This document shows, piece by piece, positions 5,955 through 46,713 of a stretch of DNA of 64,000 nt. Below the pieces are notes generated by a model. The model was not told the DNA's origin, made no database searches, and worked only from the letters and a program-made list of their open reading frames with translations. This DNA comes from Henckelia pumila (taxonomy: Eukaryota; Streptophyta; Magnoliopsida; Lamiales; Gesneriaceae): the NCBI RefSeq assembly GCF_033568475.1, contig NW_027331831.1, forward strand, positions 1,922,001 through 1,986,000, written 5' to 3'. The position numbers were made by a program, and so were the translations under genes. Position 1 is the stretch's first letter; every line of letters starts with the position of its first letter.

Positions 5955-6525
5955 TCACTTAATTTGCATCCCCCAGCAGCTACGGATCTTGAGCCGCCAA
6001 GAACCGGACGGTTTGAGCCGGTTTAAGCGTCTCCACAATCTTGATCACGGTTCTTTTCCTCAAAAAATCGGCACATTGCAGTAGACCCACCGTCCATGGA
6101 AGCAGCTAAATGTTCCATAGCCGAATCGAAGTTAGCCTCGTCCCCGTTACGTGGCCTTCCCACTGTCCTAGCCAATTCCACCATTGTTGGAGACACCTAT
6201 ATATATATGGTCACAAGCAACATTAATAATAATTTAAATATTCATGGATATATATATTAGAATGAATGAATGAATAATATTAATATTATACCAACTCTAG
6301 CAAGTTCGTTCTTTTTCCTCTTGTTTGATCTGTGTCATCAAGTTGCATGTGTCAAATCCAACACATTGCTGATCACAATCCGAATAGCCAATCCCGGCCT
6401 GAATCCACAGATAGGTTCTCTCCAAGGAGCTAAACCAAGCCGGTGCGAACACCAGGAAAACATCCTCACCCGCAACTCTTCCCTTGGCTTCGTAATATTG
6501 GTTCCAATGAGCCATGACTTGTTGG
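5955..6525 (-). pseudogene. DOG1-like gene, 3' part (interrupted)
   Basis: Minus-strand remains of a DOG1-domain protein, the plant family that includes DELAY OF GERMINATION 1 and the C-terminal half of TGA factors. Visible motifs in order: QQVMAHWNQYYEAKGRV, EDVFLVFAPAWFSSLERT, LWI, then in another frame GFRPGLAIRIV, a second exon with VSPTMVELARTVGRP, then LRKRTVIKIVETLKPAQTV and RFLAA, and a tail KIRSCWGMQIK ending in TGA at 5955-5957. A candidate intron lies between about 6282 and 6208 (donor GTATAAT, acceptor TATATAG). At least three frame changes are needed between these motifs, so it is decayed. It is separated from its 5' end (9358-9457) by the eIF2alpha insert. Confidence 0.75.
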
Positions 6526-9357
6526 ATAAGCAACACGACAAAGTTCATGTATAAGCCACGGCTTCGATGCAAACAATACAACAATAGACGTGCCAAAACA
6601 GAGTCGAATCCAAGAATTTGGAAGGGGGTGGTTCGACGAGATTGTGCATTAGCTAGATTTTTTGCGATGAAACTTTACTTTCTAAGACAAATTAAAACAT
6701 AAAATGGGACAACAAAGATATATAGATTCAAATATAACATTAAATCTTGCATACGTTAGCCAAAATTTAAAAATATAACAGGAAAACATGGGTAAAATGA
6801 CAATACATTTGTTCAAATTGTATTTGGGGATAGGGTGAACAAAATTGTTTAAATTAACAAGTACTCTCACACAGGTACGAATAAGAAAGAAGAAATATCT
6901 AATCTGTTATCCCAGATCCCGTGTTCTCCAGATCTATGTCTCCCATCCCTGTATCTTCCTCCGCTTCACTATCTTCATCTCCACTAATCTCCTCGTTCTC
7001 GCGACCAAGCTTAGCCATATGCTCTGCGAGCAGTTTATCTTCTCGTTCGCTCACCTAAATAAAACCAAACGAATTAAACACATGATGGTGGTGGCCATGA
7101 TGAATATTCAATCGAGGTGAAAATTTTGAAACCGTAACAGAACATGCAAATGGAAACGATTTTTAGCGACAATCTGATGTGATATGGGAAAGTTGAAATT
7201 CTAATTTTGATAAATATAGTCATCCTCACCGCTCTAGGTGCTTCTTTGACAGTAAGTTTTCCTGAGTGTCGTGCAATCTCTTCTGTGAAAGCTTCAATGG
7301 CCTTGTTAAGTACAGATATATACCTTGTTCCTGCAATGCAAAAATGAAACTAATTTTATTGGTGACAGCTTTTTGAATCATCTCAAACATAAAGTTAAAT
7401 ATAGGGAAATACAGGAATTGATGATAACAAGGCACCTTAACATTCACCAATGGCAAAAGCAAATTTTATGTCATTCGCTGGTGATGTACACCAGTTGCAT
7501 TGCTTAACAAACTTTGATGCTTACCATAGGATCGTGAGTATCAATATTGATCCAGAACTCATTGCTGCCCATGCATAAGGCAATATCAGATTATTAAGCG
7601 TAACATGCTTGTCTAGTAATTTACCTTGTCAAGAGTCTGGGTGTTGAGAACATATGCTGGAGGAGCAACAAGTTTAATTTTAACAGGGCAATCCTTGTTT
7701 CCTGCAGCTTCAGCTTTTCGCATCGCGTCCTGAAAAGCATTTGGGAGATATCAGTGGTACATAACACCAAAGAGAGATCCCAGTAATGCTACTAACCACG
7801 ATAATAATAAAGTTTTAAAAAAAATTAAAAACAAAAAAAAAAGAGTCAGATGATTAATCATGGGAGTGAACCTTTATGTGCAGAACACCATCAAATTGAA
7901 AGCACTTCATTTCAATATCTGCACGAATTTTTAAAGGCTGTGGTGTCATTCTTCTCCTAATATTTTTAACTAAAGAGTCTTTTACGTCCTCCGATAAAGC
8001 AGGAACAACCTTAGTTATCTGCAGGATTTCCAGATGGAAAATAATCATATACGTTGATCTCGTGAAGAATATGAGATTGAAATGAAAATGTATACTACCT
8101 CTTGTCCGTTAGGTCCGACTTCTTTTACTTCACGAGTAAGAGAGTCAAGCACGGAATCAGGATCATTGACAACTACTTTAAACGCCTGTAATTTAGAAAT
8201 CAGTAAAACGTTTGTTACGGAATTAAATATTAAGTTGGCGCAAATATACAACATATACTATATTGATTGAACTTCTGAGCATCTCACCTCAAATGCATGA
8301 CCATATTTCCTGTATAAAGGCCAGCCCACATGAATATAGAGGTCCTGCAACAAAAAATCATCTAAGCAAAGCTCATAATAGATTGTAAAATTAGTTCACT
8401 AGTCAAATAGTTCATTAATCGGGTAGCGCAACAAGCAGTATTAGCAAATCGTTTTGAGTTAATTGGTCAGTTGGCATAATTGATGCTCACACCTTTAAAA
8501 AGTACAGTGAGACCTTAACAACTCTACAAGTAACCAAAGGTAACCACAATTTAGTTCCATTGACCAATACCGAGCTCAAAATTCACAAAGTTGCAATTGG
8601 TCCTATTCAACAATAACAAGACAACCATATTCAGATTCAAATACCAAAAGCTATTCCCAGGAGATGTGTTAAACAGAGTGAAGCCTAGATCTAGTAAGTA
8701 GCCTACAAAGCTCTTCTAGAAAAGCTTCAAACTACCCATAACTGCATCCATATAAGTGTTGAATGTTCTCTGACAGTTCCTTGTAGTTTTTTTCTTCCCT
8801 TTCTTCTCTTTCACCATTTTTTTTACAAGTTTCACGGCATACTTTGCCTATAAATAGCTACTTACACCTATTTCGTTGGGATAAAATTTACAAATCACAA
8901 GCATGCTGCCAAAGGCAAAATCAAGTTAATTATTTGGAGTCAAGCAACATATCAGTAGAAGTAGCAAACAAACATGAGACTAAAATAGAAAATGCAAAAC
9001 ACAAACTCCCTAACCGATGTTTATTAGCAAGGAAAATAACAACAAAAAATGATACAAAAACATAGAACATTCCCCAATGGACTCGTTGGCAGTATTTCAA
9101 AAGCACTGAGCTAAAATCAATTTAAAGGTGCATCTTTTTATTCAAATAAGAAAACAAAAGAATAGAAATGAAAAGGAAAACTTTGAAATAAAAATTTCAA
9201 CAGATACAATCCAATTTAAAGATAACCTCAAGATCAATCTTCATTGTCTCCGCCACATGTCGCATTATGGAATGGACAAGCTTGCTCTTGTTAAATCTCT
9301 CCTCGCACGCCTGGATATCCTCTTCAGAAACTCGCCTCTTGCTGAGATCAATGTAAC
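6526..9357 (-). pseudogene. Truncated eIF2alpha copy inserted in the DOG1-like gene
   Basis: A 2832-bp copy of 32931-35762, colinear and by eye over 99 percent identical, with all introns kept, so DNA-based rather than retrotransposed. It holds the end of exon 1 (9227-9357, from [10 protein letters not shown] on), then exons at 8288-8344, 8099-8185, 7872-8018, 7625-7729, 7230-7330 and 6899-7054. It lacks the first 86 codons, hence the promoter, start codon and regulatory serine region. The 7230-7330 exon has a 2-bp TA insertion that shifts the frame and ends translation at its last codons. The 5' edge is in frame with the DOG1 fragment at 9358-9457. The 3' edge stops in eIF2alpha 3' flank. 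No target duplication flanks the insert; only gtaac is shared at one junction. Confidence 0.9.
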
Positions 9358-9457
9358 GTTCTTGATCGATCAACCAATGTTCGAAAAACAGCTGGAATGA
9401 CTGAGCATCCGAGGTGTTTGAATATGATCCAAGAGAGACATGATTCCCGGAGGCCAA
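9358..9457 (-). pseudogene. DOG1-like gene, 5' part, fused in frame to eIF2alpha
   Basis: Minus strand reads [20 protein letters not shown], the N-terminal signature of the DOG1 domain (family pattern SFxxFFexWLxxQ). The next codon belongs to the inserted eIF2alpha exon, giving a continuous frame from 9457 to 9197. The first codon after an upstream in-frame TAA is TTG, so there is no in-frame ATG here; either the start was lost or an upstream exon is missing. Family members usually have some 20 residues between this motif and the MAHWNQYY motif, which here resumes at 6525, so a short stretch may have been lost at the insertion. Confidence 0.75.
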
Positions 9458-10266: not shown

Positions 10267-12281
10267 CTAGTATTCCCACCTGTGCGATGCGCAGAATGAT
10301 ATTTTTGTGTAATTATTGACATAATATGAGTGCTTGAATAAATAATTAAAATATAAATAAATTAAGGTTGAAGTGGATTAAAAAATTTGAAATATACGGA
10401 TATAAATATATCTTCATTGCTTATATAACTTTTTTTAAAAATTCAACTTGATATTTATTAAACCACAATTGAAGTCATCACAACGGATTTCAAATCCTTA
10501 GATTATTGGAATCAATTTAAATTCATTGTAGTTGGAGTGGTTTGTGACAGAGTTTAATATTTTTGTAAATTTCTTTGGAAAATTTTTTAGAAAACAGTTT
10601 TAAGCAATTGAAATAAGTTATTTGACATCTTCTAATATGTTTATAGATATATAAATATATAAGGTTTTCCGCCCCTATTTTTTTCATAAATTTCTTATTT
10701 TAATATTTTAATTTTCATATTATATTTTTATTAAAAAATTTGTTATTTTCTAAGGGATTTATTTACCCAATAATTATAAATTTGATGCATGCAATATTTG
10801 TATTCTATACAAAAGAAAAATATAATTTTTTTAAATTTTAAAATTTCAAAGTTGAAATATAAAAATATAAAATATAAAATATAAAAATAAATATAATAAA
10901 ATATAGATACATAATATTTTAATAATATAAGTTACATTAAACTTTTTACAATTAGTATAAAATGTTTTTTATATAAACAAAAAATTAATATATAAATTAT
11001 ATAAAATTAAATAAACAAAAAATTTAATTATTATAACAAAAAAAATTTAAATTAAATCGTAAATTTGTCTATATTTTAAAAAACTTTAATCAAATAATAT
11101 ATCACTCAAATCAAAATAATATTTTCTTGAATATCCTATATAATCTCTATCTATAGTTTTAAACTCAATCATATCTTATTTGAATTTTTAAGTTTGATGA
11201 TAATGTGTTCACTATTTTCAAAAATAATTTTTCGGTTGAAAATATTATAGTTTCTATTTTAGAAATCTTTTCATCTTATATATATATATATAAACAAAAA
11301 TAAATTTTTTTTTATCACAAAAAAAAATTTAATTTAGTTTAACTTCAGGAATATTTTTATCTATGTTCTAAAATTTTATATTAAATAATATATCACTCAT
11401 AACATCATATTTTTTTGAATATTTTTGTTGTGTATATCTACATATGCATATAGACAAATCAATCATCATATTAAAAATAATATTAAATTTTATTTGATAA
11501 AAATAATATTTTAAATTTTTTCAATCGTATTTTGAAGTATATTTATAATTTCTAGATTAAATATAATATCACTAATTTTTATTAAATTTTGTTTAATAAT
11601 GAAATTTTTTTATCAAACTTTTATTAAATTTTGTTTAATAATGAAAAATATTTTTTTTAAAAAAAATCTGTCGGATTTTTATAAAAAGAGGAAGAATTTA
11701 AATTTTTTAGAAGACTATTTTGAATTTTGTTTTTAATTAAATCATATTTTTTACTTATATTTTAAAAATTTTAGTTTAAATATTTGCATATGAGTTTTAT
11801 GTTTTTATATATAAAAATTGCTAAAGGTATAACAAATATCATATACAATGATATCTAAAATATTAATATCTTGAAATTTTTTTATTTTATCGCGATATTT
11901 TGTATCTAATTTATCATGATATTTTTATATATTAAATTCCTATATAATTTTTTGTGTTGTAAAATTTGGTGTACAAATTTTGTTTTATTGAGCAAAACAA
12001 CCAACGTCAAAAGCAAAAATTAAATTTTTTTTGATCAAGATAAATTATATTTTAAATTTTTAAAATTAAATTATATTTTTATCTATATTTTAAAATTTTT
12101 ATGTCAAATATTTTATCATTTATAATATCATCTTATTTTTTGAATATTCAATATTTTCTCTATCTATAATTTTAAATTAAATTATATTTTTTTTATTTTT
12201 AATTTTATGATATCTTTAATATTTTTGAAAATATCTTTTGGGCTTGAAAATTTGTTTTATTTCTATTTATGTCACTTTTTT

Positions 12282-12318
<37 letters not shown>

Positions 12319-12955
12319 CTAAACAACCACATTAAAAAAAATTGTTTGATCACTATAAATAGTACTTTAATTTTTTTAAATTAAATCATATTTATATATA
12401 TATATTTTAAAATTTTTAAATCAAATATTTTATCACTCATAATATTATTTTTTTAAACTTCAATATTATCTCTATCTATACTTTTAAATTTAACCATATT
12501 TTATTTTCAAATTTAATGATTAATGATAATGTTTTTACTATTTTTATAAATTACTTTTGAACGAAAAACTATTTTTAGCAGACTTTTATTCTTTTATATA
12601 GATATATATTAATAATATTATTTTTTAATCTTTGTTGTGTATATACATAATTGATAGTCAAAACACCGGCTATAAGAAAATTTTCAATTTTGTTAAATCA
12701 ATAAAAATAATTTTTTTAATTTTTTTAAAAAAATCACTCGTATTTTAACTATATTTTAAATTTTTTGGATAATATACTTTATCACTTATAATATAATATT
12801 TGTTTTATTTTGAATATTATCTTTACCTAGTTTAAATTCAACAATATCTTTATTTTATCTATGCAATATTTTTACTAATTTTAGAATAAACTTTAGGCGG
12901 AAAAATGTTTGTTTTCTTTTTTTAGCATACTTTCTTGTTTTTATATATATATAGA
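10267..12955 (-). mobile_element. Non-autonomous Helitron
   Basis: Read on the minus strand the element begins TCTATATATATATAAAAAC at 12955 and ends GGTGGGAATACTAG at 10267. Just inside the 3' end is the short hairpin CTGCGCATCGCACAG (plus 10281-10295). It sits between host A and T with no target duplication: plus strand ccctaa before, tttctg after. These are the TC start, CTAG end, hairpin and A|T site of plant Helitrons. The 2.69-kb interior is extremely AT-rich, has no Rep/helicase coding, and contains four or five degenerate copies of a roughly 300-450-bp unit recognisable by tatcactcataatat, a ctctatctata block and a later ttttgaaaat block (near 11090, 11390, 12110, 12430, 12780). Confidence 0.75.
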
Positions 12956-13210
12956 TTTCTGTTCTTCCTCCCATCGTCTTGCTCGCTTCCTTCTACGCCA
13001 AAAATCGTCGCCCAACACCAGCTCTATCATCCTCCAATCTCGTCTCGTCTGCTTTCCTTTTCCTACGTTGATCGAAATTATAAGTACGTGCATTTGTTTT
13101 TTTTTTTCTGGTTATTTAATTGCGATTTCTTTGTCGTGACCGAATTGTTCAAACCTCTGTTCTTCTTCGTCGTTGCCCCCGCATTCGATTACCCGAACAA
13201 GTTCTCGGAG
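12956..13210 (+). other. Pyrimidine-rich gene-like leader fragment
   Basis: Sequence rich in C and T (cttcctcccatcgtcttgc, cgcttccttctacgcc) with a GTACGTG-type donor at about 13083, resembling a plant 5' leader and first intron. It ends ttctcggag directly before the 27-bp DOG1 shard. No protein match is recognised. Likely the remnant of a gene start. Confidence 0.3.
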
Positions 13211-13237
13211 GTAACGTTCTTGATCGATCAACCAATG
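13211..13237. repeat. 27-bp shard of the DOG1-like exon
   Basis: An exact copy of 9353-9379 (gtaacgttcttgatcg followed by atcaaccaatg), which codes for HWLIDQERY on the minus strand at the DOG1 junction. Sequence on either side is unrelated: a leader-like fragment before it and a T-run after it. It fits templated filler DNA at a repaired break. Confidence 0.85.
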
Positions 13238-13539
13238 CTTTTTTTTTTTTTTTGAAAAAATAAATGAATAAATTTTCAAAAAAAGAAGAGAAAAACAACA
13301 GAATAGGCTTGGTTGGTTTTAGGAGGTGGATTTCTCGGCCCCCTGTGTTAAACTTTACTTGTTGGATAGAGCCTGAGCTTCATTAATTCATTTGGGCCCA
13401 GAAGAATTTAGATGGCCCATATTATTATGGACATAACCCAATTTATTCGGGTGGTACACAATTAAGCAGCCAATAAAGCGCCGGTCGGATTTGTGGCTCA
13501 GCATCCACCAATGTCTTGCAGCACCAAAAACTCTCGAGA
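13238..13539 (+). promoter_or_regulatory. 5' flank of PPR copy B
   Basis: A poly-T run, then about 280 bp without features up to the ATG at 13540. No clear TATA element. An out-of-frame ATG at 13511 opens a 13-codon upstream frame. Confidence 0.35.
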
Positions 13540-15801
13540 ATGGAGAACATAGTTCTTCCATGTAAAACTATACCCCTTGGAATCCCTGAAACTTTGCGAT
13601 TTCCGCACAAGATCTCTTTCAGAAGGCCCAGTTCAGCTGAAGATTTCGAATTGAAGCAGCTCTGCAAGCAAGGACGCCTCGGTGAAGCTATTGCCTATTT
13701 GGATTCCATTGCTTTATCATGGTCGAAGGTACGACACAACACTTTATCGTACTTGATTCAATCGTGCATTCATTCTCGTTTAATAAGGCTATGTTCCGAG
13801 CTGTATGCCCGTGTCAGGGAATGGCTAAAACGAAAACCTGACCCGTTTCTTGAAGCCAAGTTAGTTGGCATGTTTGCGAAGTGTGGTTCCCTAGATGATG
13901 CATTTCAAGTATTTGATGAAATGGTTGAAAGGAATTTGTATGCGTGGTCTGCTGCCATTGGCGCCTGTTCAAGAGAGAAGAGGTAGGGTGAAGTGTTGGA
14001 CCTATTTTATTTGATGATGATTGAGGGTGATGCGTTTCCTGATAATTTCTTGTTTCCCAAAATTTTACAGGCGTGTGGAAAGTGTGGGGATGTCGATACA
14101 GGGAGATTGATACATGCTATGACAATTAAACTTGGGATGAGTAGAGAACTGCGTGTGAGTAATTCTATTATTGCTGTCTACGCGAAATGTGGATGGTTGA
14201 GCTGTGCTGAGAAGTTTTTTGGAAGATCAGAAGTGAATGATATAGTTTCTTGGAATGCAATAATTACAGGGTATTGCCTGCAGGGAAAGATGGATGATGC
14301 ACTTAGATTTTTTAACTTGATGTGCAAAGATGGTGTTGAGCCGGGGATGATCACTTGGAATATAATGATTTCAAGCTATAACAATGCAGGAAAGTGTGAT
14401 GAAGCGATTGAAATGATGAATGAGATGGAGAGTTATGGTCTCATGCCCGATGTTTTCACTTGGACTAGTATGATTTCTGGACTTGCGCAGAATGATAAGG
14501 GGGCGGAGGCATTACGTTTGTTTCAGAAGATGCTTTCATCAAGAGTTGAACCAAATGGGGTTACTCTATTGAGTGCCATATCAGCATGTTCATCTTCAAA
14601 AGATCTTAGGAAAGGAAAGGAAGTTCATTTATTTGCCATCAAGTTGGGATATGCTGAAGATGTTCTTGTGGGGAATTCCCTCGTTGACATGTATTCCAAG
14701 AGTGGAAAACTTCGGGCAGCTCGCCAGGTTTTTGATATGATATCAGAAAAAGATGTGTATTCGTGGAACACAATGATAGGAGGATATTGCCAAGCTGGAT
14801 ACTGTGGTGTAGCACATGAGCTCTTTAAAAGAATGCAAGAATCAAGCATAAAGCCCAACGTAATTACGTGGAATGTGATGATCACGGGTTACATTCATAA
14901 TGGAGATGTGGATCAGGCCATGGATCTTTTCCAGAAGATGGAAAAGGATGGGGGAATTCATCGGGACACTGCATCTTGGAATGCTCTTATTACTGGTTTC
15001 TTGCACAATGGCTTGAAAAATAGAGCACTGCAGATTTTCCGGATGATGCAGTCTGTTGGTTACAAACCCAGTTCAGTTACTATTTTGAGCATCTTGCCGG
15101 CATGTGCAAATTTGGTTTTTGTGAAAAAGTTGAAAGAGATCCATGGTTGTGCTTTGAGGAGAAATATAGACTCTGATGGTTCGGTTGTGAATTCTCTCAT
15201 AGACACTTACTCGAAATCGGGGATGTTGAAATATGCGGAAGTCATATTCGATGGAAAGTCATCAAAAGATATTGTGACGTGGAACACAATGATTGCTAGT
15301 TATTTTGCGCATGGGCGTTTTATGAAATCAATTGAGCTCTTTGAAATGATGTTGCAACAGCAATACAGACCTAACAGAGGTACATTAGGGGGTGTGATTT
15401 CGGCTTATGGTCGTGCCAAAATGGTTGATGAAGGGTTGCTAGTCTTCTTGAAGATGACTGAAGATTATCAGGTTTTACAAAGTTTAGACCTTTACATGGC
15501 TGTGGTAAATTTATATGGTCGTTCAGGGATGCTCGATGATGCATTGAACTTTATCAGGGGAATGCCCATAGAGCCTGATGTCTCTATTTGGTCTGCTTTT
15601 TTTGCTGCCTGCCGGGCACATGGGAATGTTAAGTTGGCAATTTACGCAGGAGAGAGGTTACTTGAACTTGAACCAGGAAATGCTTTCATTCACAGGGTAG
15701 TCGTACACCTATATAACTTGGTTGAAATTTCCAAGGATTCTTCCTATATAAAAGCATCCGAAATTAGGAAAGATTCAACAGAACCTATGGGTCTGAGCTA
15801 G
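13540..15801 (+). pseudogene. PLS/DYW-class PPR gene, copy B (body)
   Basis: Long PPR protein with many tandem P, L and S repeats such as DIVSWNAIITGYCLQGKMDD, DVYSWNTMIGGYCQAGYCG and DIVTWNTMIASYFAHGRF, followed by the E motifs. Organellar RNA-editing specificity factors have this build. Length, order and unusual repeats (GVEPGMITWNIMISSYNNAG) match, from memory, Arabidopsis At1g19720. The ATG at 13540 (MENIVLPCK) is chosen because that homologue also begins with ME; the frame is open further upstream only through a TTG. Intronless. Two TAG codons occur where tryptophan is expected: at 13984-13986 (after SREKR) and at 15799-15801 (GLS*IED). The second is shared with copy A, the first lies outside it. 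With the LTR insertion just downstream and frameshifts in the tail, this copy is a pseudogene. Confidence 0.85.
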
Positions 15802-15824
15802 ATCGAAGATAAAAACACGGTTCA

Positions 15825-18517
15825 TGTAACACCCGGTATTTTAAATACGTAAATTCGCATGCATAATTAGGAATTTTATTTATTTAGAATTTTAGATTTA
15901 TGGGTTAAATAATTATGTGAAATTATTTGTGCATGTTTTAAGTTATTTTAAGCATTTAACCCATAATTAGTGATTTTCACGATTTATGGAAATTAATTGT
16001 TTTTGATCGCGTAGACGGGACTGTGGACGGACGAGATGACAACTTTCTATCCAAATTATTTTATGAGTCTTTTTAGAGCCCAAAAATATTATTTTGAGTT
16101 TTATTTCCTCAATATTTTTAGTATTTAATTTTATATAATTTTAGGAGTCCATTTTTATTCAAAATAAGTCAAAATAGTGACTTTTAATTGTTTTTAAAAT
16201 TCCCTTAATTATATATTTCGGGATTTTAATTTTAGTTATCAGATTTTACTTCTTAATTAGAGTTTTTAAGTTATATATTTTACATTAAAAAACCCTTATT
16301 AATATTTTAATTATCCTAAAAACCTACTTTTAATTAAATTAAAAACCTAAACCTATCCTACCCAAATCCCTCACCCGATCACTCTCTCAGCCGCCACCCC
16401 TCTCCTTAATTCTTCTTCGACCGATCAACAGCCTCCAAGAAGGCTCCATAGACGTTTTTCTTCGAAGCTTCAAGGTTGTTCGTCGTCCCGTCGTCCCGGA
16501 TTCGTTCTACACGCTCCTACCTCTTATTTTAACGGTGCAAGGCATGATTCTTCTTCTCTTTTTATGCATCAAATCAGTATTAATTGTTTCAGTATGTGTA
16601 TACATCGATTTCTTCAAAGAATTTCAGAAAATGGGTCGTTTTGTGCTTGTGTCACGTTCATGTTCTTGATTTATCATCACTCACGTTTTCTCCATTTTTC
16701 TTTGGGCGACTAGCTGCTGGTCAGGTTCTGTAGGGTGTGCTAAGATGGTCTAGACTCGAATGGCTCGAGTGGTTCGAGCCAAACGAGTCTAGAAACAAGC
16801 TAAGGGAGTTCGGGTCTTGATGGTGGCGCAGATTAGGGTTCTGAGAAGGGGGGCTCGGTGATGAGGTCTAGGCTGCATGGGGCTGGGGCCATGGGCTGGT
16901 TTGGACCGCCCAGACGTGGGCTACGTCTGGGTGGTGGGGCTCCGGCCAGGGGCGGCCGAAGCAGGGAGGCAGCAGCCCTAGAAGGGCTGCTGCTCGCGGC
17001 CAAGAGCTGCAAGGAAGAGGGGCGTCGGGTTTTAGGGTTTGAAGTGATCCGGGTCGGGTTGTTGGGTCCGGGTCGGGTCAGGAAAGTCATGGGTTATGTT
17101 AGTTGGGTCCGGGTCCGGGTTAAGTTAGTTGGGCTCGGGTATTTTTATTTTTAAGTTTTAAGTTTAATTAAGTGTTTAATGGGCCTAATTAAATCTCAAA
17201 ATTTATTTGGGCTCCATTTAATTATTTCGGGTTAAATTTAATTATTTTGGGCTTAATTAAATTAATTAAGTGGGTCCACTAATTTTTATGGGCCTTGAGG
17301 GCCCATGGAAGTTATTGGGCCAGTTTTTGGGCTTTTGGGCCCATTGGACCAGAATATGTTGTTATTGGGCCAGAAGTGTTTTAATGGGCTTTAATTAATT
17401 AATTGGGCTTAGAAATGTAATGTGGGGCTTAAGTATGTTAATGGGTCAGTCTCAGTGTTAATGGGCCAGATTTAAGTAAATGGGCTTGAGTGTTAGGGCC
17501 AGCAGTTCAGTACAATCCATGAGAAATTTGCATAAGTCCTGAATATATATTTAATTATTTTATGCATGGAAGTTATTTTTAATATTTATATGTTAGTATG
17601 AAATTAAATTAAATATATATGAAGGACACACATTTTATTTAAGTACATGCATTCATGAAATAATTTTTATGCATGATTTAATGTTTAAGGTTGAGCAAAA
17701 GAAAATATTTTATGTTGGAAGTTGAAGTAGTGTGACAATTTAAGGGGGACTCGTCCCCATATGTGAACTATTGAAGGGCAGTTTACTGCCAATTTAAGAG
17801 GTGATTCGTCACCGCCACGTACGTTGGTTTCCACGCTGATCAGTATTTGATGTATGATTTAAGGTTACACTATGGATACAACCATGCGATGTTAGAAAAT
17901 AATTTGCTCAACAATGTTTATGTATTATTTATGTTATGATATTTAAGTTAATTGAAGTTATGTGATGTCAATGATATTTTAAGCATGCTCATTCATGTAT
18001 ATGTTATGTATTAGTATTAAAGTGATTTAAATTATTTTAAACCCTTGTTATGTTAGCATGTTGGGCCTCTAGGCTCACTACATTGGTATGGTGCAGGTGA
18101 GTACGTGGAGGAGGATGTAGCTCCTACCGGCGGCGAGGACGTATGAGCAGACTGAGAGTGATCCCCCGTGACCGTTGTCTGAGTCTTTATGCATGTCTCG
18201 AGTTTTTAGCATGTTACATTTTAATTATTTTCAGTGGTTGTGATTTGGGATATTTTATTTAAGAAATTTTCAGTGCATGCAAAACTTTAATTTATTTTAC
18301 TTTTGTCAGTATTGTATTTAACGCATGACTCAGATATTTAAATTATGAAATGTTAAGTTTTCGATTTGTTGCATTATTTTTATTCATGTTATTTATTTTT
18401 AAATCTATTTATTCTGTGCATATATGTATGGGCATGTATGTACATATTTTTATTTAGTAAAAAAAAATAAAAATTTCCGCATATTTATTTATTAATTATA
18501 GAGTTAGGGTCGTTTCA
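15825..18517. mobile_element. Solo LTR, Gypsy superfamily (Tekay/Del-like)
   Basis: A 2693-bp unit starting TGTAACACCCGG and ending GGGTCGTTTCA, flanked by the 5-bp direct repeat GTTCA (15820-15824, 18518-18522). TG...CA ends, target repeat size and no internal coding or second LTR indicate a solo LTR left by recombination. The terminal sequence and great length suit the Tekay/Del chromovirus lineage; the clade is inferred. Copy A retains the empty site, so insertion is probably younger than the duplication. Confidence 0.8.
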
Positions 18518-18522
18518 GTTCA

Positions 18523-18893
18523 TATGTTTAGTTCTGGTAATCTTGGCCAACTTGATGATAAATCTATACTTTCTTGGATAAAAAAAGGAAGAATTAAGAA
18601 CCAAGGGGACAAAATACTATGACGTGCTCGTCATTCCGGAAGAAGAAAAAAAAGAAATGAATGGAGTTCACAGTGAGAAACTTGCATTAGCTTTTGCTCT
18701 CATCAAATCTGCTCAAAGGTCTCGAAGTATAAGGATAGTCAAGAACTTGAGGACGTGTGAGCAATGCCATGGATTTGCCAAATCAGTTTCTGAAACGCAT
18801 GAGTGTGAAATATACTTAAGTGATCCAAAATGCTTGCACCATTTCGAAAACGGGTCTGTTCGTGTGGCGATTACTGGTAGATTGATCATATAG
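18523..18893 (+). pseudogene. DYW-domain tail of PPR copy B, beyond the LTR
   Basis: Continues copy B after the solo LTR and matches copy A from about 263 on. Compared with copy A it has one extra A in the run near 18580 and one G missing near 18851, so the deaminase region is out of frame at its start and the terminal CSCGDYW motif is lost. HSEKLALAF and CEQCHGF are still readable from 18676 on. Confidence 0.85.
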
Positions 18894-19292
18894 GACCGTA
18901 CACCTTCACCCACTGTTGTTCCGCAAGAAGCACTCTCGATGAGGTAAATATGTATATATTTTGCATTGTAAATTGAGGAGGCTTGTAGATGAAACTGTAC
19001 CCAAAGTTTTGTCTATGACTCCTAGGCTTTCCATGAAAATACAGTGGTGTAATGGCACTGGCTAAGTATGTTGTTTCTGAATGTAGCTTTTCTTTGTAGA
19101 TAAGAAATGAATGCATAATGTTATAACTGTTGTAAGCAAAGCAATAATTTTTCTTTTTTGTGAGGATGAATGATAATACAAAGGCTTGAGCCGAGGCACA
19201 AAGAGGCACCAAATGGATTATTGAACAAATATATGTGCTATTAATTTACATTTACTCGTATTTTGTTCAGATAATTTATAAATGTAATCATG

Positions 19293-20951
19293 CTGACGGA
19301 TCTAGCTTAGGCCAATCCTAGGCTGTAGCCCACCCCAAATTCTTTTTTATTACATATATAAGTTGTTTTACTTAATCCAATAAAATTTACTTTTTACACC
19401 GGAAGCCTATGTGCACAACTTCATTTTTGGGTGGAAAATTGCATTGTAGTCCTGCATATTTGTCATTTTACGATTTTTATTCTCTGTGTTAGGAAATTTC
19501 AGTTTTAGTCACGCAATTTTTTTGGTATTCTAGTCTTTTTTTATTGGAAGTGCTAATGTGGCAATATACACTCCAGTGTTAGCAGTACTGCATTATTTTC
19601 ATGTCAAAGCCAAGTCGGAACAAAGATGAAAGTTGAAAAAAAAAAAACAAAGATAACAGATTAAAATTGAAATTTGACAACATAGAGGATCAAAATCCTA
19701 AAGACAAACATATAGGATTAAAAACACAATTTGTCTATTTTTTGTGAGTAGTACAATGTAATGACTTTTTTTTATACTACCTACGTCCCAATTATATTGT
19801 CCACGTTTTTTTTTATTTGTCCCAAATATATAGTAATATACCATATTTAGTAATATTTTTTTACACTTCTTTACTAATATACACTTATTAACTACACTTT
19901 GAAAATTGTGCAATCATTTTTTAATGAGAGAATTTTTAAAATGGCCTTCTACAAGTATCTATAATCAATTTTGGCCTTAATTTAGCTATTTTTTCAAATT
20001 AGACTTTTAATCATCCCAAGTTACAGATTTATCCCTTAAACCCTATTATCACTTATTATCACCGATTTATCATTCTTATTTTTTTCTCTTTGTTGCCACC
20101 AACAAAACATTAAATCCAAGATACGAAATCTCATGTTTTGTGGTTTTGATTTTTTATTTATTCTTATATTTTATTTTAGTTTATTGGAAAAGTCACAAAT
20201 TTCATTATATTATCTTCTCCCTCTCCCGGATTCTCACCGCCAACCATCAAATCAAATCAAGGGAGGTAATCTCTTTTTCTTTTTGCATCATTTTTTATGT
20301 GTTTTTATATCATGTTTTAATGTATTGAAAATTCATGATGAATATCAGATTATATAATTTTTTATGTAATATTGATAAGTATATCACACAAAGCTAATTG
20401 TTAGAGTAATGTTATCTACGTGCAGTATCTAGTAATTGGATAGTAGAGACTGATACATTGATATAGTTGTGGGGTTCGGCTCTATTAGCGGTGTTGAATC
20501 ATATGCATATTGTGAAAAATATTGTGTTAATTTAAAATACATTTTAAACAATATTTTTACGAGCCAATTTTTTTTCTTCCAAATATATTGTTGTAAATCT
20601 CTCTTAATTTATTGAGTGAGTTATAGTAATAGAATCTACAAATTTAGAAAATGTTTAAAAGGATATTTTAGGATTTTAAGTTTATGGAAAGGCTATACTG
20701 CAAAATATTTGATGAACAAGGCTATTTTTAAAAATATGATTTGGAAGTAGGCTAGAATCCTTAAATTCTCTTTTTTAATACATTACATAGGAATAAAATA
20801 GAAAGTTTATATAAAATTTACTTTCCCAATAAATTTTTCTTAATCCATGTGAAAAACAAAATAGGACAATGTATTTGGAACAGAGAGAGTAATATATAAT
20901 TCATTGATTAAGATCAACCCACCCCAACTCTAATTTATAAATCCGTCCCTG
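19293..20951. mobile_element. Nested MITE set, copy B
   Basis: Same three-layer arrangement as 1035-2692, carried along by the duplication: CTGACGGATC at the left edge, ATCCGTCCCTG at the right, Stowaway-like and MULE-like layers inside. Small differences from copy A accumulated afterwards. Confidence 0.5.
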
Positions 20952-21177
20952 ATCATGCATTTAAATATTCGTTTGCAATAATTAAGAGAAATGTGAAAAT
21001 TTGGTTGAGTTGAGTGCTTGTGATTATTATTTTTAAGTTGACCATTGAAAATAAGTAATGTATTTTTTCAATAAGAAGAATATATGTTGATTTTGATTAG
21101 TACTTGGAGATCTATAATTTGAAGTCTAATATGGTATCATTCGAATAAAATATTCTTCTCAATTCCATGTCTCCCAT

Positions 21178-32930: not shown

Positions 32931-35762
32931 ATAAGCAACACGACAAAGTTCATGTATAAGCCACGGCTTCGATGCAAACAATACAACAATAGACGTGCCA
33001 AAACAGAGTCGAATCCAAGAATTTGGAAGGGGGTGGTTCGACGAGATTGTGCATTAGCTAGATTTTTTGCGATGAAACTTTACTTTCTAAGACAAATTAA
33101 AACATAAAATGGGACAACAAAGATATATAGATTCAAATATAACTTTAAATCTTGCATACGTTAGCCAAAATTTAAAAATATAACAGGAAAACATGGGTAA
33201 AATGACAATACATTTGTTCAAATTGTATTTGGAGATAGGGTGAACAAAATTGTTTAAATTAACAAGTACTCTCACAGGGGTACGAATAAGAAAGAAGAAA
33301 TATCTAATCTGTTATCCCAGATCCCGTGTTCTCCAGATCTATGTCTCCCATCCCTGTATCTTCCTCCGCTTCACTATCTTCATCTCCACTAATCTCCTCG
33401 TTCTCGCGACCAAGCTTAGCCATATGCTCTGCGAGCAGTTTATCTTCTCGTTCACTCACCTAAATAAAACAAAACGAATTAAACACATGATGGTGGTGGC
33501 CATGATGAATATTCAATCGAGGTGAAAATTTTGAAACCGTAACAGAACATGCAAATGGAAACGATTTTTAGCGACAATCTGATGTGATATGGGAAAGTTG
33601 AAATTCTAATTTTGATAAATATAGTCATCCTCACCGCTCTAGGTGCTTCTTTGACAGTAAGTTTTCCTGAGTGTCGTGCAATCTCTTCTGTGCAAGCTTC
33701 AATGGCCTTGTTAAGTACAGATATACCTTGTTCCTGCAATGCAAAAATGAAACTAATTTTATTGGTGACAGCTTTTTGAATCATCTCAAATATAAAGTTA
33801 AATATAGGGAAATACAGGAATTGATGATAACAAGGCACCTTAACATTCACCAATGGCAAAAGCAAATTTTATGTCATTCGCTGGTGATGTACACCAGTTG
33901 CATTGCTTAACAAACTTTGATGCTTACCATAGGATCGTGAGTATCAATATTGATCCAGAACTCATTGCTGCCCATGCATAAGGCAATATCAGATTATTAA
34001 GCGTAACATGCTTGTCTAGTAATTTACCTTGTCAAGAGTCTGGGTGTTGAGAACATATGCTGGAGGAGCAACAAGTTTAATTTTAACAGGGCAATCCTTG
34101 TTTCCTGCAGCTTCAGCTTTTCGCATCGCGTCCTGAAAAGCATTTGGGAGATATCAGTGGTACATAACACCAAAGAGAGATCCCAGTAATGCTACTAACC
34201 ACGATAATAATAAAGTTTTAAAAAAAAATTAAAAACAAAAAAAAAAGAGTCAGATGATTAATCATGGGAGTGAACCTTTATGTGCAGAACACCATCAAAT
34301 TGAAAGCACTTCATTTCAATATCTGCACGAATTTTTAAAGGCTGTGGTGTCATTCTTCTCCTAATATTTTTAACTAAAGAGTCTTTTACGTCCTCCGATA
34401 AAGCAGGAACAACCTTAGTTATCTGCAGGATTTCCAGATGGAAAATAATCATATACGTTGATCTCGTGAAGAATATGAGATTGAAATGAAAATGTATACT
34501 ACCTCTTGTCCGTTAGGTCCGACTTCTTTTACTTCACGAGTAAGAGAGTCAAGCACGGAATCAGGATCATTGACAACTACTTTAAATGCCTGTAATTTAG
34601 AAATCAGTAAAACGTTTGTTACGGAATTAAATATTAAGTTGGCGCAAATATACAACATATACTATATTGATTGAACTTCTGAGCATCTCACCTCAAATGC
34701 ATGACCATATTTCCTGTATAAAGGCCAGCCCACATGAATATAGAGGTCCTGCAACAAAAAATCATCTAAGCAAAGCTCATAATAGATTGTAAAATTAGTT
34801 CACTAGTCAAATAGTTCATTAATCGGGTAGCGCAACAAGCAGTATTAGCAAATCGTTTTGAGTTAATTAGTCAGTTGGCATAATTGATGCTCACACCTTT
34901 AAAAAGTACAGTGAGACCTTAACAACTCTACAAGTAACCAAAGGTAACCACAATTTAGTTCCATTGACCAATACCGAGCTCAAAATTCACAAAGTTGCAA
35001 TTGGTCCTATTCAACAATAACAAGACAACCATATTCAGATTCAAATACCAAAAGCTATTCCCAGGAGATGTGTTAAACAGAGTGAAGCCTAGATCTAGTA
35101 AGTAGCCTACAAAGCTCTTCTAGAAAAGCTTCAAACTACCCATAACTGCATCCATATAAGTGTTGAATGTTCTCTGACAGTTCCTTGTAGTTTTTTTCTT
35201 CCCTTTCTTCTCTTTCACCATTTTTTTTTACAAGTTTCACTGCATACTTTGCCTATAAATAGCTACTTACACCTATTTCGTTGGGATAAAATTTACAAAT
35301 CACAAGCATGCTGCCAAAGGCAAAATCAAGTTAATTATTTGGAGTCCAGCAACATATCAGTAGAAGTAGCAAACAAACATGAAACAAAAATAGAAAATGC
35401 AAAACACAAACTCCCTAACCGATGTTTATTAGCAAGGAAAATAACAACAAAAAATGATACAAAAACATAGAACATTCCCCAGTGGACTCGTTGCCAGTAT
35501 TTCAAAAGCACTGAGCTAAAATCAATTTAAAGGTGCATCTTTTTATTCAAATAAGAAAACAAAAGAATAGAAATGAAAAGGAAAACTTTGAAATAAAAAT
35601 TTCAACAGATACAATCCAATTTAAAGATAACCTCAAGATCAATCTTCATTGTCTCCGCCACATGTCGCATTATGGAATGGACAAGCTTGCTCTTGTTAAA
35701 TCTCTCCTCGCACGCCTGGATATCCTCTTCAGAAACTCGCCTCTTGCTGAGATCAATGTAAC
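32931..35762. repeat. Segmental duplication, eIF2alpha source copy
   Basis: 2832 bp colinear with 6526-9357 and equal in length. Edges: ggtgcaaaac|ataagcaacac on the left, atcaatgtaac|ccttctcc on the right, the latter inside exon 1. Compensating one- and two-base indels and about a dozen substitutions separate the copies. This copy continues into the intact gene on both sides, so it is the ancestral locus. Confidence 0.95.
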
Positions 35763-36015
35763 CCTTCTCCTTATCAACACGGAGCACCATAACAGGCTCA
35801 ATTCGGCCCACCTTAATGAGGCTGCTGATACTACGAATTCGGCGTCGAGACAGCTCCGAGAACAGAATCATCCCTTCGATGTTGTTGTACTCGAGGAGTG
35901 AAACGTACGCGCCGCTGTCAGCCATGCTCTTCACTTGTATCATCACCGCCATGTCGACCTCCGGGTACTTCGCCTCGTACATCCGGCATTCCAGGTTCAC
36001 CCCGTTCGTCGCCAT
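33304..36015 (-). CDS. eIF2alpha: Translation initiation factor eIF2 alpha subunit
   Basis: Complete seven-exon gene: 36015-35632, 34748-34692, 34589-34503, 34422-34276, 34132-34028, 33733-33635 and 33459-33304, all with GT-AG borders. The exons add up to 344 codons, the same length as the Arabidopsis protein. The product is the regulatory subunit of the eIF2 complex that brings Met-tRNA to the 40S ribosome in the cytosol. The S1 domain (about 12-88) holds [20 protein letters not shown], and [11 protein letters not shown] carries the serine phosphorylated by GCN2-type kinases. Then come [11 protein letters not shown], the helical domain with [20 protein letters not shown], and the C-terminal domain ending in an acidic tail ([20 protein letters not shown]). 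Start context is [20 protein letters not shown], as in other plants. The 5' neighbour region 36016-36138 is a G/C-rich leader. Confidence 0.95.
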
Positions 36016-40454: not shown

Positions 40455-41389
40455 ATGTTGATTGTTGAGAAGAAGAGGAATGCTTTTAAGACACCAATCA
40501 AAGTATCATTGGTTATGCTGATGCTGGATATTTATCTAATCCACATAAGACACGTTCCCAAATCGAATATGTATTTATTCGTGGAGGCACCGCAATTTCT
40601 TGGCGTTCACAGAAACAAACACTCGTAACAACTTCATCAAATTACGCCGAGATTATTGCATTACATGAAGCAAGTCGTGAATGTGTGTGGTTAAAATCAA
40701 TGACACAACATATCCAAACTTCTTGTGGATTATCAGTAGACAAGAAGCCTGTGACGTTGTATGAAGACAATGCTGCATGTATTTCTCAAATGAAAGAAGG
40801 ATACATCAAAAGTGACAGAACCAAACATATCCCCCCAAAGTTCTTTGCCTACACTCAAGAGCTTGAGAAGAATAAAGATATTGATATCTGTTACATTCAA
40901 TCAAGTGATAACTCATCAGATCTCTTCACAAAGGCACTTCCCACGACGATATTCAGAAAACATATATACAACATTGGGATGCGCAATCTACGGAATATGT
41001 GAAGAATCACTCATATTAACATGAGAGAGAGTTTACGTGGCTGCACTCTTTTTTCCTTGCTATGGTTTTTATCCCACTGGGTTTTTCTTAGTCAGCATAA
41101 AATACGTAATAGAGACAATCATCATATGACGATCATCATCACAAGGGGGAGTGTTGAAAATATATTATATTATATTAGAATTGTTGAAAATTGAGTTGTA
41201 TTATTTTGAAAATTAGTGTGTGATGATGTAGATGATGATGATTTAATTTTTGGACTAATCTCCCATTGAGATCTATAAATAGGTCTCTCCATTTGTGTAG
41301 AAAAACACAATTTGAGAGAATAAATTTAAAGTGTGGAGTTTGAGAATATTTTGAGTTTTTGAATTTTATAAATTTTACTTTTCACAACA
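40455..41389 (+). mobile_element. Copia element, 3' part (RNase H and LTR), plus orientation
   Basis: A broken element part: a reverse-transcriptase-associated RNase H region (about 40500-41000) with YEDNAACISQMKEGYIKSDR and SSDLFTKALPTT, a purine-rich tract caagggggag at 41142-41151, and a 238-bp LTR at 41152-41389 (TGTTGAAAAT ... TTTTCACAACA). It belongs to the same family as the minus-strand part at 41525-46713. Confidence 0.85.
41152..41389 (+). repeat. Copia LTR, 238 bp (plus)
   Basis: Inverted with respect to the LTR at 46476-46713, same length, about five differences by eye (near 2 percent). If the two came in together this suggests an age around one million years, using usual plant substitution rates. 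Confidence 0.85.
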
Positions 41390-44300
41390 TAAGTCAATTT
41401 CTCAAACATTAAGACTCGTGATATAATCATCACATCGAGAACTCATGATATACTTGTCGTTTCATAAAAAATTATAAGTGATGATTGTGATATAAAATTC
41501 AAATATTTTAAATTAAATATATGTTTAAATATCATACGTGACTCCTAGATAACGAAATATATGTTTAATTCCGTTCCAGTGCCTCTTTGTTGGATATGAA
41601 CTGAATCTTGCCAATAAATTTACAGCAAAAGATATATCAGGTCTAGTGCAATTTGCAAGATACATAAGGGCACTAATGACACTTAGATATGGTACTTCTG
41701 GACCAAGAATAACTTCATCATCCTCACATGGACGGAATGGATCCTTTTCTATGTTTAATAATCTTACAACCATTGGAGTACTTAATGGATTTGATTTATC
41801 CATATTAAAACGTTTAAGGATCTTTTCTGTATAATTTGTCTGGTGAACAAAAATTCCACATTCTTTTTGTTCGATTTGCAAACCCAGACAGTACTTGGTT
41901 TTTCCAAGATCCTTCATTTCAAATTCTTCTTTCAAGTACATCATAACTTCTTGAATTTCTTTATTCGTTCCAATGATGTTTAAATCATCAACATATACAG
42001 CAATGATTACACATCCGGATATTGTTTTCTTGATGAAAACACAAGGGCATATTGAATCATTTACATATCCCTTTTTCATCAAGTGATCACTTAGCCGATT
42101 ATACCACATTCGGCCTGATTGCTTCAACCCATATAATGATCTTTGCAATTTTACAGAATAAAATTCTCTGGGTTTTGAACTTTGTGCTTCAGGCATCTTA
42201 AATCCTTCAGGGATTTTCATGTATATATCACTATCAAGTGATCCGTATAAGTAAGCTGTAACAACATCCATAAGACACATTTCCAAATTTTCAGACACTG
42301 CCAAACTAATCAAATATCGAAACGTAATTGCATCCATAACAGGAGAATACGTTTCTTCATAATCAATTCCAGGCCTTTGAGAAAAACCTTGTGCAACAAG
42401 TCTAGCTTTATATCTGACTATTTCATTTTTCTCATTTCGCTTTCGAATAAAAACCCATTTGTATCCAACAGGTTTTACACCTTCAGGTGTGAGGATTATA
42501 GGTCCAAAAACATTACGTTTATTCAGCGAATCTAATTCAACCTGGATGGCATCTTTCCATTTGGCCCAATCATGACGAGTTTTACATTCACCAAAATTGG
42601 TTCATGATCCTCATTTTCATTTATGATGTCACAAGCCACATTATAAGAAAATATCTCATCAATATCTTCTATGTCTTTTCGGTTCCATATTTTTCCAGTA
42701 TTAATATAATTGATAGAGATTTCACGATTCTCGTCAATTTGTGGTTCTGACAGAACATTTTCATCATCAGGTGTTTCTTCTGGAACACCATTTTCTATTT
42801 TATGATCATCGTGCTTCTCTATGCCTTTTCTTTTCCGAGAATTTTTATCCTTGGAACCGACTGGCCTTCCACGCTTCAGGCGTTTAATGACATCATGAGT
42901 GTCTTCAATCCGTTTCTTTGGAATTTCAATTCGAGCTGGGGCATTTATAGCATGTATATATGATTTTGTCACCCCTTTTGTGCCTGCAAATGCATCTGGC
43001 ATTTGATTTGTTATTCTTTGCAAATGTACAATTTGCTGTACATCTTTTTCACATTATTTGGTCCTTGGATCCAAATGTAACAATGATGATACATACCATG
43101 AGATTTCTTTTTCGATGTGTTTCTTTTCTCCCCCTAACACTGGGAATATTTCTTCATTAAAATGACAATCAGCAAAGTGTGCTGTAAACACATCGCCTGT
43201 CTGAGGCTCAAGATATCGAATGATTGATGGACTATCATAACCGATATAAATATCGATTTTTCTTTGAGGACCTATTTTTGATCGTTGAGGTGGTGCAATA
43301 GGCACATACACCATACATCCAAAAATTCTCAGATGAGAAATATTTGGTTCTTTATCAAATGCAAGCTGCAATGGGGAGAATTTATGATATGCACTTGGTC
43401 TGATGCGAATTAATGCCGCAGCATGTAAAATTGCATGTCCCCATATAGAAATAGGGAGTTTTGTTCTCATAATCATTGGTCTAGCAATCAGTTGTAGACG
43501 TTTAATCAATGATTCAGCTAATCCATTCTGTGTATGAACATGAACAACATGATGTTCAACAGTAATTCCCATTGACATACAATAGTCATTGAAAGTTTGG
43601 GAAGTAAATTCTCCAGCATTATCAAGTCTTATTTTCTTGATTGTATAATCGGAAAATTGATTCCGCAATTTTATTATTTGAGCCATTAATATTGCAAATG
43701 CCACATTTCGAGTTGACAATAAGCATACATGTGACCATCTGCTAGAGGCATCGATCAATACCATAAAGTATCGAAATGGTCCACATGGTGGATGAATTGG
43801 CCCACAAATATCACCCTGAATACGTTCAAGAAATATGGGTGATTCAGTTTGGATTTTAGCTGGTGATGGTCTTATAATAAGTTTTCCAAGTGAACATGCT
43901 TTACATTGAAACTTATTATTCTGAAAGATCTTTTGGTCTTTCAATGGATGACCATGTGTATTTTCAATAATTATTTGCATCATTGTTGAACCAGGATGTC
44001 CCAATCGATCATGCCAATTTGTTAATATTGATGAATTATCCATCACCATATTTGATTCAATTGGACTTATATGTGTATAATGCAATCCAGTAGGGAGCAT
44101 TGGTAATTTATCAACTACAAATTTCTTTCCTGACTTAAATGTGGTAAGACACATATATTTCTGATTTTCATCAGTCATTGTCTCAGTATCATACCCATGA
44201 GAATATATGTCATTAAAACTCAACAAATTTCTTTTCGATCGTGGTGAATATAAAGCATCATTTATCAAAAAATTTGTACCATTAGGTAACAAAAATTTCG

Positions 44301-46035
44301 CTTTACCAAAACCTTCAATCAAGTCTACAGGACCTGATATTGTATTCACCATTGTTTTTGTTGGTTTTAGTTTCAAGAAATATCTTTCATCTCGCAGAAT
44401 AATGTGCGTTGTACCACTATCCGGTATGCAAATTTCCATGATATTATTTCCATGTTTGCTCATAGCATTTTCCATATCAAACTTCACAAAAATGTAATAA
44501 AGAAAAATTAAGTACAATACAAATGTAAAATATAACATGCTTTATAATACAAAAATGCATAAAAAATACAAATTTATTACAATCTAGTCCCACCAATCTT
44601 TTAATCAATGTCTTCGAAATCATTCAAAAAATCTGCAGCACTGAAACTAGTTGAACCAATTAAATGGTCACTATTTTCAACAAAATTGGTCGCTTTTCCT
44701 TTCCCCTTTATCGATTCTTTATAGAGCTTACAAAGGTGCTCGGGGGCTCGACAAGTTCGTGACCAATGTCCCGGAGTGCCACATCTATAACAAACACTCT
44801 CGGTTCTTTTTGAGTGATTTTCATTTTCACTCATGTTTTCATGCTGCCTTTTTAGTGGGTGGTGTGTGACGATCTTTTGAGATGAGTTACTGAAATAACT
44901 ATCTCGATTATTTTCATATCCACGACCACGGTCATTTCTACGTCCACGTCCACGACCTCGTCCACGACCAAAATCTGGTCTATTCCTTTGATTTTGGTTT
45001 TCATTTTTCATTACGACATTTGCTTCAGGAAATGCCGTTGATCCAGTGGGTCGGGATTGATGATTTCTTACTAACAATTCGTTGTTCTTTTCCGCCACAA
45101 GAAGACATGCGATTAGTTCGGAATATCTCGAAAATTCACGCACTCTATACTGTTGTTGTAGAGTTATATTCGATGCGTGAAAAGTGGAAAATGTTTTATC
45201 AAGCATTTCCATCTCTGTGACTTCAAGTCCACAGAATTTTAATTGTGAGACTATTCGATACATCGCAGAATTATAATCACTGACTTTTTTAAAGTCTTGG
45301 AATCTCAACGTATTCCATTCATCACGGGCGGTCGGGAGTATCACTTCCCTTATATGCTCAAATCTTTCTTTCAGCCCTTTTCATAAAGTCATTGGGTCTT
45401 TTTCTGTGAGATACTCACATTTCAACCCTTCATCAAGATGTCGGCGCAAGAAAATCATAGTTTTTGTTTTATCTTGTGAGGTTGATATATTATTTTCTTT
45501 AATGCTTTCACTTAGACCCAATGACTCAAGATGCATCTCAACATCAAGAGTCCATGGCATATAATTTTTTCCAGTGATATCGAGTGCAACGAATTCAAGC
45601 TTTGCCAAGTTTGACATGGTGGTACTAAAAAAATAACAATGCATTTTATTAGTTAATTTCCATTAATATGACAATACAAAATAATGGATAAACGATGAGT
45701 ACAAGTAAGTGTACAAATAGAGAAAAAGCATGTGGTGGAAAATCGCTGGTGAGTACAAAACTCGTGAGCATGATGATCATAATCGTTATGAAAAATATCC
45801 TTAGAAAAGCCAAAAACTCCATCTTCTTCTTTTTCGAAAAAAAAAACCGAGGAGAAAATGTTTTGAGATGAAGAATGAATTTTGGTGTGATTGAAAATGA
45901 GTTTGAGTAAAAATATTTATAGGCCAAAAACTAGTCGTTTGTGACCGTTGGGGGTAAAGAAAAATCGAGTATGTGTTGAATAAAAATTTGTGATAATGAT
46001 ACAATGCATATAATGATAATCATAATTAAATAATT

Positions 46036-46235
46036 ATGTATATCATATCACATTATTATAAGATCGGTGTCGTAGACAGTTTTTTATATAATATTGTGAA
46101 ATTATACCAATATAGTTAGTATAAAGTCAGGTATAGTATATCATATCACATTATTATAAGATCGGTGTCATAGACAACCTTTTATATAATAACATGACAT
46201 TATACAAATATGATTATAATGTTTAAAAACCTTAT
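46036..46235. repeat. About 100-bp tandem duplication in the Copia leader
   Basis: The unit tatatcatatcacattatta with agatcggtgtcgtagacag occurs at about 46039-46135 and again at about 46138-46235, between the LTR/primer site and gag. Confidence 0.8.
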
Positions 46236-46475
46236 AAGCTTTTATACTTGTCGTATCCCTTACCGGAAGTGTGGGATATCGTCTTAACATCCTCCCAGGA
46301 TTTATAACAAGTTTTTTAAAAAATTCATAACATGATATTATATATTGATATATACACAATAAAAATATATAAACAGTAAAATAAAAATTCTTACTTGTTG
46401 AATATTTTTGACTTCTTCTTGTATTTTGGAGCGTCGGAAATTATAGAGAACCTTCGAGCGATCGTGCTGATAACG

Positions 46476-46713
46476 TGTTGTGAAAAGTAAAATTTATAAA
46501 ACTCAAAAACTCAAAATATTCTCAAACTCCACACTTTAAATTTATTTTCTCAAATTGTGTTTTTCTACACAAATGGAGAGACCTATTTATAGATTTAGAT
46601 GGGAGATTAGTCCAAAAATTAAATCATCATCATCTACATCATCACACACTAATTTTCAAAATAATACAACTCAATTTTCAACAATTCTAATATAATATAA
46701 TATATTTTCAACA
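46476..46713 (-). repeat. Copia LTR, 238 bp (minus)
   Basis: Inverted partner of 41152-41389. It ends at 46713, and the outside flank begins agtta. Confidence 0.85.

Follow-up and report, generated by a model that had tools for sequence, protein, structure and literature searches.

We find that a DOG1-like gene of Henckelia pumila is interrupted by a 2832-bp copy of an eIF2alpha gene that lies intact elsewhere in the same window, the window being the whole stretch of 64,000 nucleotides analysed here (contig NW_027331831.1; Table 1). The explanation that we favor, with a probability of about three in four, is that a break in the DOG1-like exon was repaired with this copy, that a second small patch was made nearby, and that the reading frame fused across one border of the insert is a chance by-product. 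An earlier note on this DNA had described the insertion and the fused frame; to these we add an apparent middle piece of the DOG1 exon at another site, frameshifts in the downstream DOG1 half and microhomology at one junction.

Table 1. Positions in the window of the features discussed in the text.
Feature	Position	Strand	Extent or basis
eIF2alpha gene, intact	33304..36015	(-)	seven coding exons from ATG to stop; protein of 344 aa
Donor segment inside the intact eIF2alpha gene	32931..35762	(-)	self-comparison of the window
Inserted eIF2alpha copy	6526..9357	(-)	begins at donor residue 86, ends 373 bp beyond the stop codon, holds six introns
2-bp insertion breaking exon 6 (penultimate) of the copy	7316..7317	(-)	alignment of copy and donor
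N-terminal exon piece of the DOG1-like gene	9358..9457	(-)	joined-piece alignment to TGA7
Downstream part of the DOG1-like gene	5955..6525	(-)	DOG1 domain from profile position 21, then C-terminal part
Apparent displaced DOG1 exon fragment, ~95 bp	13143..13237	(-)	27 bp identical to 9353-9379, continues into YLRELVRVIECGGNDEEEQRFEQ
5-bp microhomology GTAAC	9353..9357	(.)	common to donor, DOG1 stand-in (13211-13215) and junction

The eIF2alpha gene and its inserted copy

When the window was compared with itself, the copy and the donor segment appeared as a direct repeat of 2832 bp per side with 99.3% identity, which bears out the earlier description of an eIF2alpha segment of this length, introns included, lying inside a DOG1-domain gene. 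The donor protein has S1 and EIF_2_alpha domains in a Pfam scan, and the EIF_2_alpha domain (PF07541) is also present in the copy (E=1.3e-34). As the copy begins at donor residue 86, it is without the S1 domain and without the serine at residue 56, which we take to be the plant counterpart of Ser51. All six introns of the copy keep GT...AG borders, so that a processed pseudogene or retrocopy can be ruled out. The direction of copying is set by the donor being intact and the copy being truncated at its 5′-end.

A base-by-base list of copy against donor contains 19 differences, namely 16 substitutions and three indel events (four gap positions). Three substitutions are exonic, two of them silent and one changing Cys to Phe. 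Nothing in the copy would point to selection, and the differences (3 of 779 exonic sites and 13 of 2053 other sites) are too few for a test. Taken together with assumed substitution rates, 16/2832 sites (or 13/2053, or 3/779) would place the insertion very roughly 0.1–0.5 million years ago. Patchy gene conversion along the copy was considered and rejected: a stretch free of differences as long as the longest one observed (429 bp) arose in 69% of 5000 random placements of the 19 sites. The same differences speak against an assembly artefact in which two haplotypes of eIF2alpha were joined by mistake, and both joins furthermore lie inside one DOG1 gene with colinear flanks; we found nothing in favour of this explanation, disfavour it and give it next to no weight.

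The interrupted DOG1-like gene and the borders of the insert

The two flanks of the insert are of unequal strength as evidence for a DOG1-like gene when taken singly. PF14144 is recognised in the C-side piece by itself (E=4.5e-14), from profile position 21 on, and the N-side piece with the eIF2alpha residues that follow it matched no Pfam family. Against solved structures the single pieces gave weak matches, with E=0.1 for the C-side piece and E=0.61 for the N-side piece, the latter after being extended by a few letters supplied by hand, and the last C-terminal piece gave none. When the pieces were joined across the frameshifts, with X for the missing part, they aligned in a single order to residues 87–278 of TGA7 (E=7.2e-13) and also to TGA3. 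This colinearity is why we read both flanks as one DOG1-domain gene, contrary to the possibility, raised in the earlier note, that they belong to different gene families. By these alignments, both borders of the insert fall within a single DOG1 domain, and nothing else has been added at them.

At least two shifts of frame, one near 6401 and one near 6087, break the downstream half of the gene, and additional ones are likely, if less certain. For the first frame change, after LERTYLWI, two joins were tried, and these raised the Pfam DOG1 score from 52.8 bits unjoined to 56.7 and 64.4 bits; the 64.4-bit join reaches the end of the DOG1 profile and uses a few bases twice. With the downstream pieces joined over one frameshift, PF14144 was matched at E=1.1e-17, and the other join tried gave 2.8e-15. 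The second frame change lies between MEHLAASMDG and LLQCADFLRK, and the alignment to TGA7 runs across this join, skipping one residue shortly ahead of it. A possible intron of 95 bp at 6197-6291 would fit with the zero to one intron of most pepper DOG1 genes, as given in an excerpt of PMC12251688. On the N-side there is no in-frame ATG, and the nearby ATG at 9439-9441 sits in another frame.

If the DOG1-like gene had gathered indels only at the rate of the eIF2alpha pair (three per 2832 bp), then three frameshifts in its 576 bp would have P=0.024 and four P=0.004, whereas two, worked by hand from the same expectation, would have P of about 0.13. The calculation also covered 4 per 2832, 2 per 2832 and 1 per 779; the figure of 4 counts gap positions, where the true count is three events. 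These values are suggestive only of a DOG1-like gene that may already have been dead before the insertion.

At the right junction exactly GTAAC is shared among donor, target and copy and nothing longer, the pre-insertion target being represented by the displaced fragment at 13.2 kb. When up to 200,000 pairs of places were picked at random in this window, 0.9% of them had a microhomology of at least 5 bp. CTTAT at the left junction could be a second microhomology, a candidate that the displaced fragment, which stops short of it, cannot confirm. Around 23 codons of the target are lost at the insertion site.

The same junctions bear on transposon capture, by which an element of the Helitron or Pack-MULE type would have carried the eIF2alpha fragment into the DOG1-like gene. 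No target-site duplication was found, the longest word shared by the 30-bp flanks being 6 bp long and 16 bases from each junction, and no terminal inverted repeats were seen, the ends of the insert matching at 6 of 30 positions. Helitrons begin with TC at the 5′-end and finish with CTRR at the 3′-end. Such ends are absent by eye from the insert, which runs ATAAG...GTAAC on the plus strand and GTTAC...CTTAT on the minus strand. Plant transposons do capture gene fragments, as stated in an excerpt of PMC3445842, but here eIF2alpha fills the insert from one border to the other with nothing added, and part of the target sequence is missing; we therefore disfavour capture and regard it as very unlikely.

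A possible second patch and its neighbourhood

When the DOG1 pieces were searched against the window, HWLIDQER was found again at 13214-13237, and at the level of DNA the 27 bases at 9353-9379 are identical to those at 13211-13237. A scan for exact repeats of at least 16 bp, from which low-complexity words and pairs within known repeats had been removed, turned up none longer than this, the next being 19 bp, at 30573 and 30614. The frame at 13.2 kb runs on into YLRELVRVIECGGNDEEEQRFEQ, which is what the DOG1 exon would require between both flanks. Thus, 13143-13237, the far end of which was set by eye, appears to be the segment of the DOG1 exon that is missing at the insertion site, an identification carried mainly by the exact 27-bp overlap and the in-frame continuation.

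Profile scores add to this unevenly. Setting the fragment between the flanks lifted the Pfam DOG1 score to 60.9 bits from 55.2, and the match then began at profile position 4 instead of 19. Adding ten further residues from 13.2 kb gave just 55.5 bits, the N-side and middle fragment alone gave no Pfam DOG1 match, and a linker written by hand scored higher, at 64.6 bits. In the TGA7 alignment the fragment gained only 0.9 bits over X. On these less favourable scores, the fragment could instead be a relic of a DOG1 paralogue. One base past the fragment there is a run of 15 T (13239-13253), and AT-rich diverged repeats lie between both DOG1 pieces at 11046-12953.

The window also carries PPR-DYW and AP2 genes, and with these, DOG1 and others its gene content points to a plant. 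There is a second local duplication, of 1-2918 and 15561-21177, which carries the DYW end of a PPR gene and has an identity of 98.5% over its main part and 99.2% over the first 265 bp. The right PPR copy has an apparent in-frame stop at 13984-13986, placed from the ORF borders, with PPR matches on either side, and it is split by a 2.69-kb insertion (15825-18517), which is probably an LTR-type element since it has TG...CA ends and a 5-bp direct repeat, GTTCA. A Copia element with RVT_2 and integrase domains (Pfam) occupies 40490-46713 on the minus strand and has two inverted repeats of 238 bp, one at 41152-41389 and the other at 46476-46713; an ORF on the plus strand (40490-41002) resembles copia RNase H by eye and has no Pfam match, and the 3′-end of this element may have been flipped.

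The PPR duplication also raises an alternative in which a single coupled event of serial template switching (MMBIR/FoSTeS type) gave rise to both the eIF2alpha insertion and the displaced DOG1 fragment, and perhaps to the border of the PPR duplication as well. Such coupling would agree with the nearness of the duplicated PPR block and with the fragment having been copied, as we infer, before or while the DOG1 middle was lost. The PPR duplication is, however, more diverged over its main part than the eIF2alpha one, and its left end lies beyond the window, so we consider a single event for all of these unlikely.

The fused reading frame, a proposed repair origin and known systems

The join from DOG1 to eIF2alpha at 9357/9358 is in frame, and the resulting frame is open for 243 codons between stops. 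The first Met of this frame, in MRHVAET, is inside the eIF2alpha part, there is no ATG in the DOG1 part, and the frame ends in frameshifted sequence past the insertion in exon 6; the frame accordingly has neither the in-frame start nor the uninterrupted coding sequence of a functional chimeric gene. A junction falls in frame by chance one time in three.

The earlier note had reported most of this anatomy correctly, including the in-frame junction, the retained splice sites, the missing phosphorylation site, the 2-bp insertion in the penultimate exon and the lack of an in-frame ATG. What holds of its interpretation is that eIF2alpha was copied into a DOG1-like gene with an in-frame join, while its phrase "a clear snapshot of chimeric gene birth" is too strong and weakly supported: given a one-in-three chance of an in-frame join, no start in the DOG1 part, the frameshift in exon 6 and at least two more in the downstream DOG1 half, it goes too far. 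As far as it can be judged from the DNA itself, the anatomy is what DNA repair would leave on uniting two damaged gene pieces.

A nascent chimeric gene would require that a transcript from the DOG1 promoter encodes a DOG1-eIF2alpha protein without the regulatory phosphorylation site. The length of the open frame, its in-frame join and the six GT...AG introns would suit such a gene, but the position of the first Met, the frameshift in exon 6 and the ease with which a join falls in frame make it highly improbable. We suggest instead that the fused frame is a chance by-product, a repair scar that would yield no working protein because the DOG1 part lacks a start codon and exon 6 is frameshifted. 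There is a small chance of a transcript from an internal start, or of a silencing transcript. More elaborate still, and likewise highly improbable, is a scenario of one repair episode that took an eIF2alpha segment into DOG1 and the middle of the DOG1 exon to 13.2 kb, thus copying two pieces among three points in a 30-kb region, followed by a transcribed fusion whose eIF2alpha part, started at an internal ATG and without the stress-phosphorylation domain, would compete with or silence the true eIF2alpha.

For the repair of a break with a copied patch, we propose that the DNA broke in the first exon of the DOG1-like gene, which before the insertion would have read ...QERYLRELVRVIECGGNDEEEQRFEQ... 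and then ...LIQQVMAHW.... Repair would have filled the break with a 2832-bp stretch copied from the eIF2alpha gene, which lies 26 kb off, its orientation being kept. The copying would have gone by SDSA or in a polymerase-theta manner (theta-mediated end joining), with the 5-bp microhomology at one end, and about 23 codons of the target exon would have been lost. A second site, 3.8 kb further on, would have received a copy of the missing part of the exon before this part was lost from DOG1 or while it was being lost. As the lost segment also seems to survive at 13.2 kb, at least two local patches would have been made. Since donor, copy, both borders and an apparent displaced piece of the target lie within ~30 kb, the scar is unusually readable and shows the copying step and the microhomology directly. 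It also illustrates that a chance in-frame join can easily pass for gene birth.

A literature search on eIF2alpha, DOG1 and chimeric genes returned nothing relevant among the matches listed, from which absence from print does not follow, and in a search on plant eIF2alpha duplication, pseudogenes and GCN2 none of the papers concerned such a gene by title and the start of the abstract. Wicker et al. reportedly described in 2010 plant gene "patches" at double-strand breaks, in which genomic DNA holding all or part of a gene is copied in, the mechanism being synthesis-dependent strand annealing together with microhomology or end joining. The present locus is similar in that a genomic fragment was apparently copied into a break, with microhomology at the right junction. 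Unlike in those patches, the donor lies just 26 kb off, the insert sits in a coding exon with an in-frame join, a displaced piece of the target seems to survive nearby, and no transposon is seen at the junctions.

Foreign DNA or gene fragments copied into plant DNA breaks by SDSA or end joining are described in excerpts of several studies (PMC3445842, PMC3503983, PMC4423477, PMC7935947). The length of the insert counts against the patch reading, as 2.8 kb is far longer than the fillers given in excerpts of reports on maize (up to 131 bp; PMC2686159) and rice (1–123 bp; PMC4423477). The maize p2/p1 chimeric gene, as described in part of the former report, likewise owes its structure to break repair with filler from nearby, but there a 50-bp filler was copied from two nearby sites and paralogues were fused (PMC2686159), whereas the 2.8-kb insert here is unrelated to its target. 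Oryza fusion genes similarly unite parts of different genes, and more than 44% of them are reported as expressed in an excerpt of PMC9199173, in contrast to the broken frame found here. In conclusion, gene-fragment filler is already known in plants, and we regard the interrupted DOG1-like gene as a further, well-preserved case of such an event and not as a new working gene.
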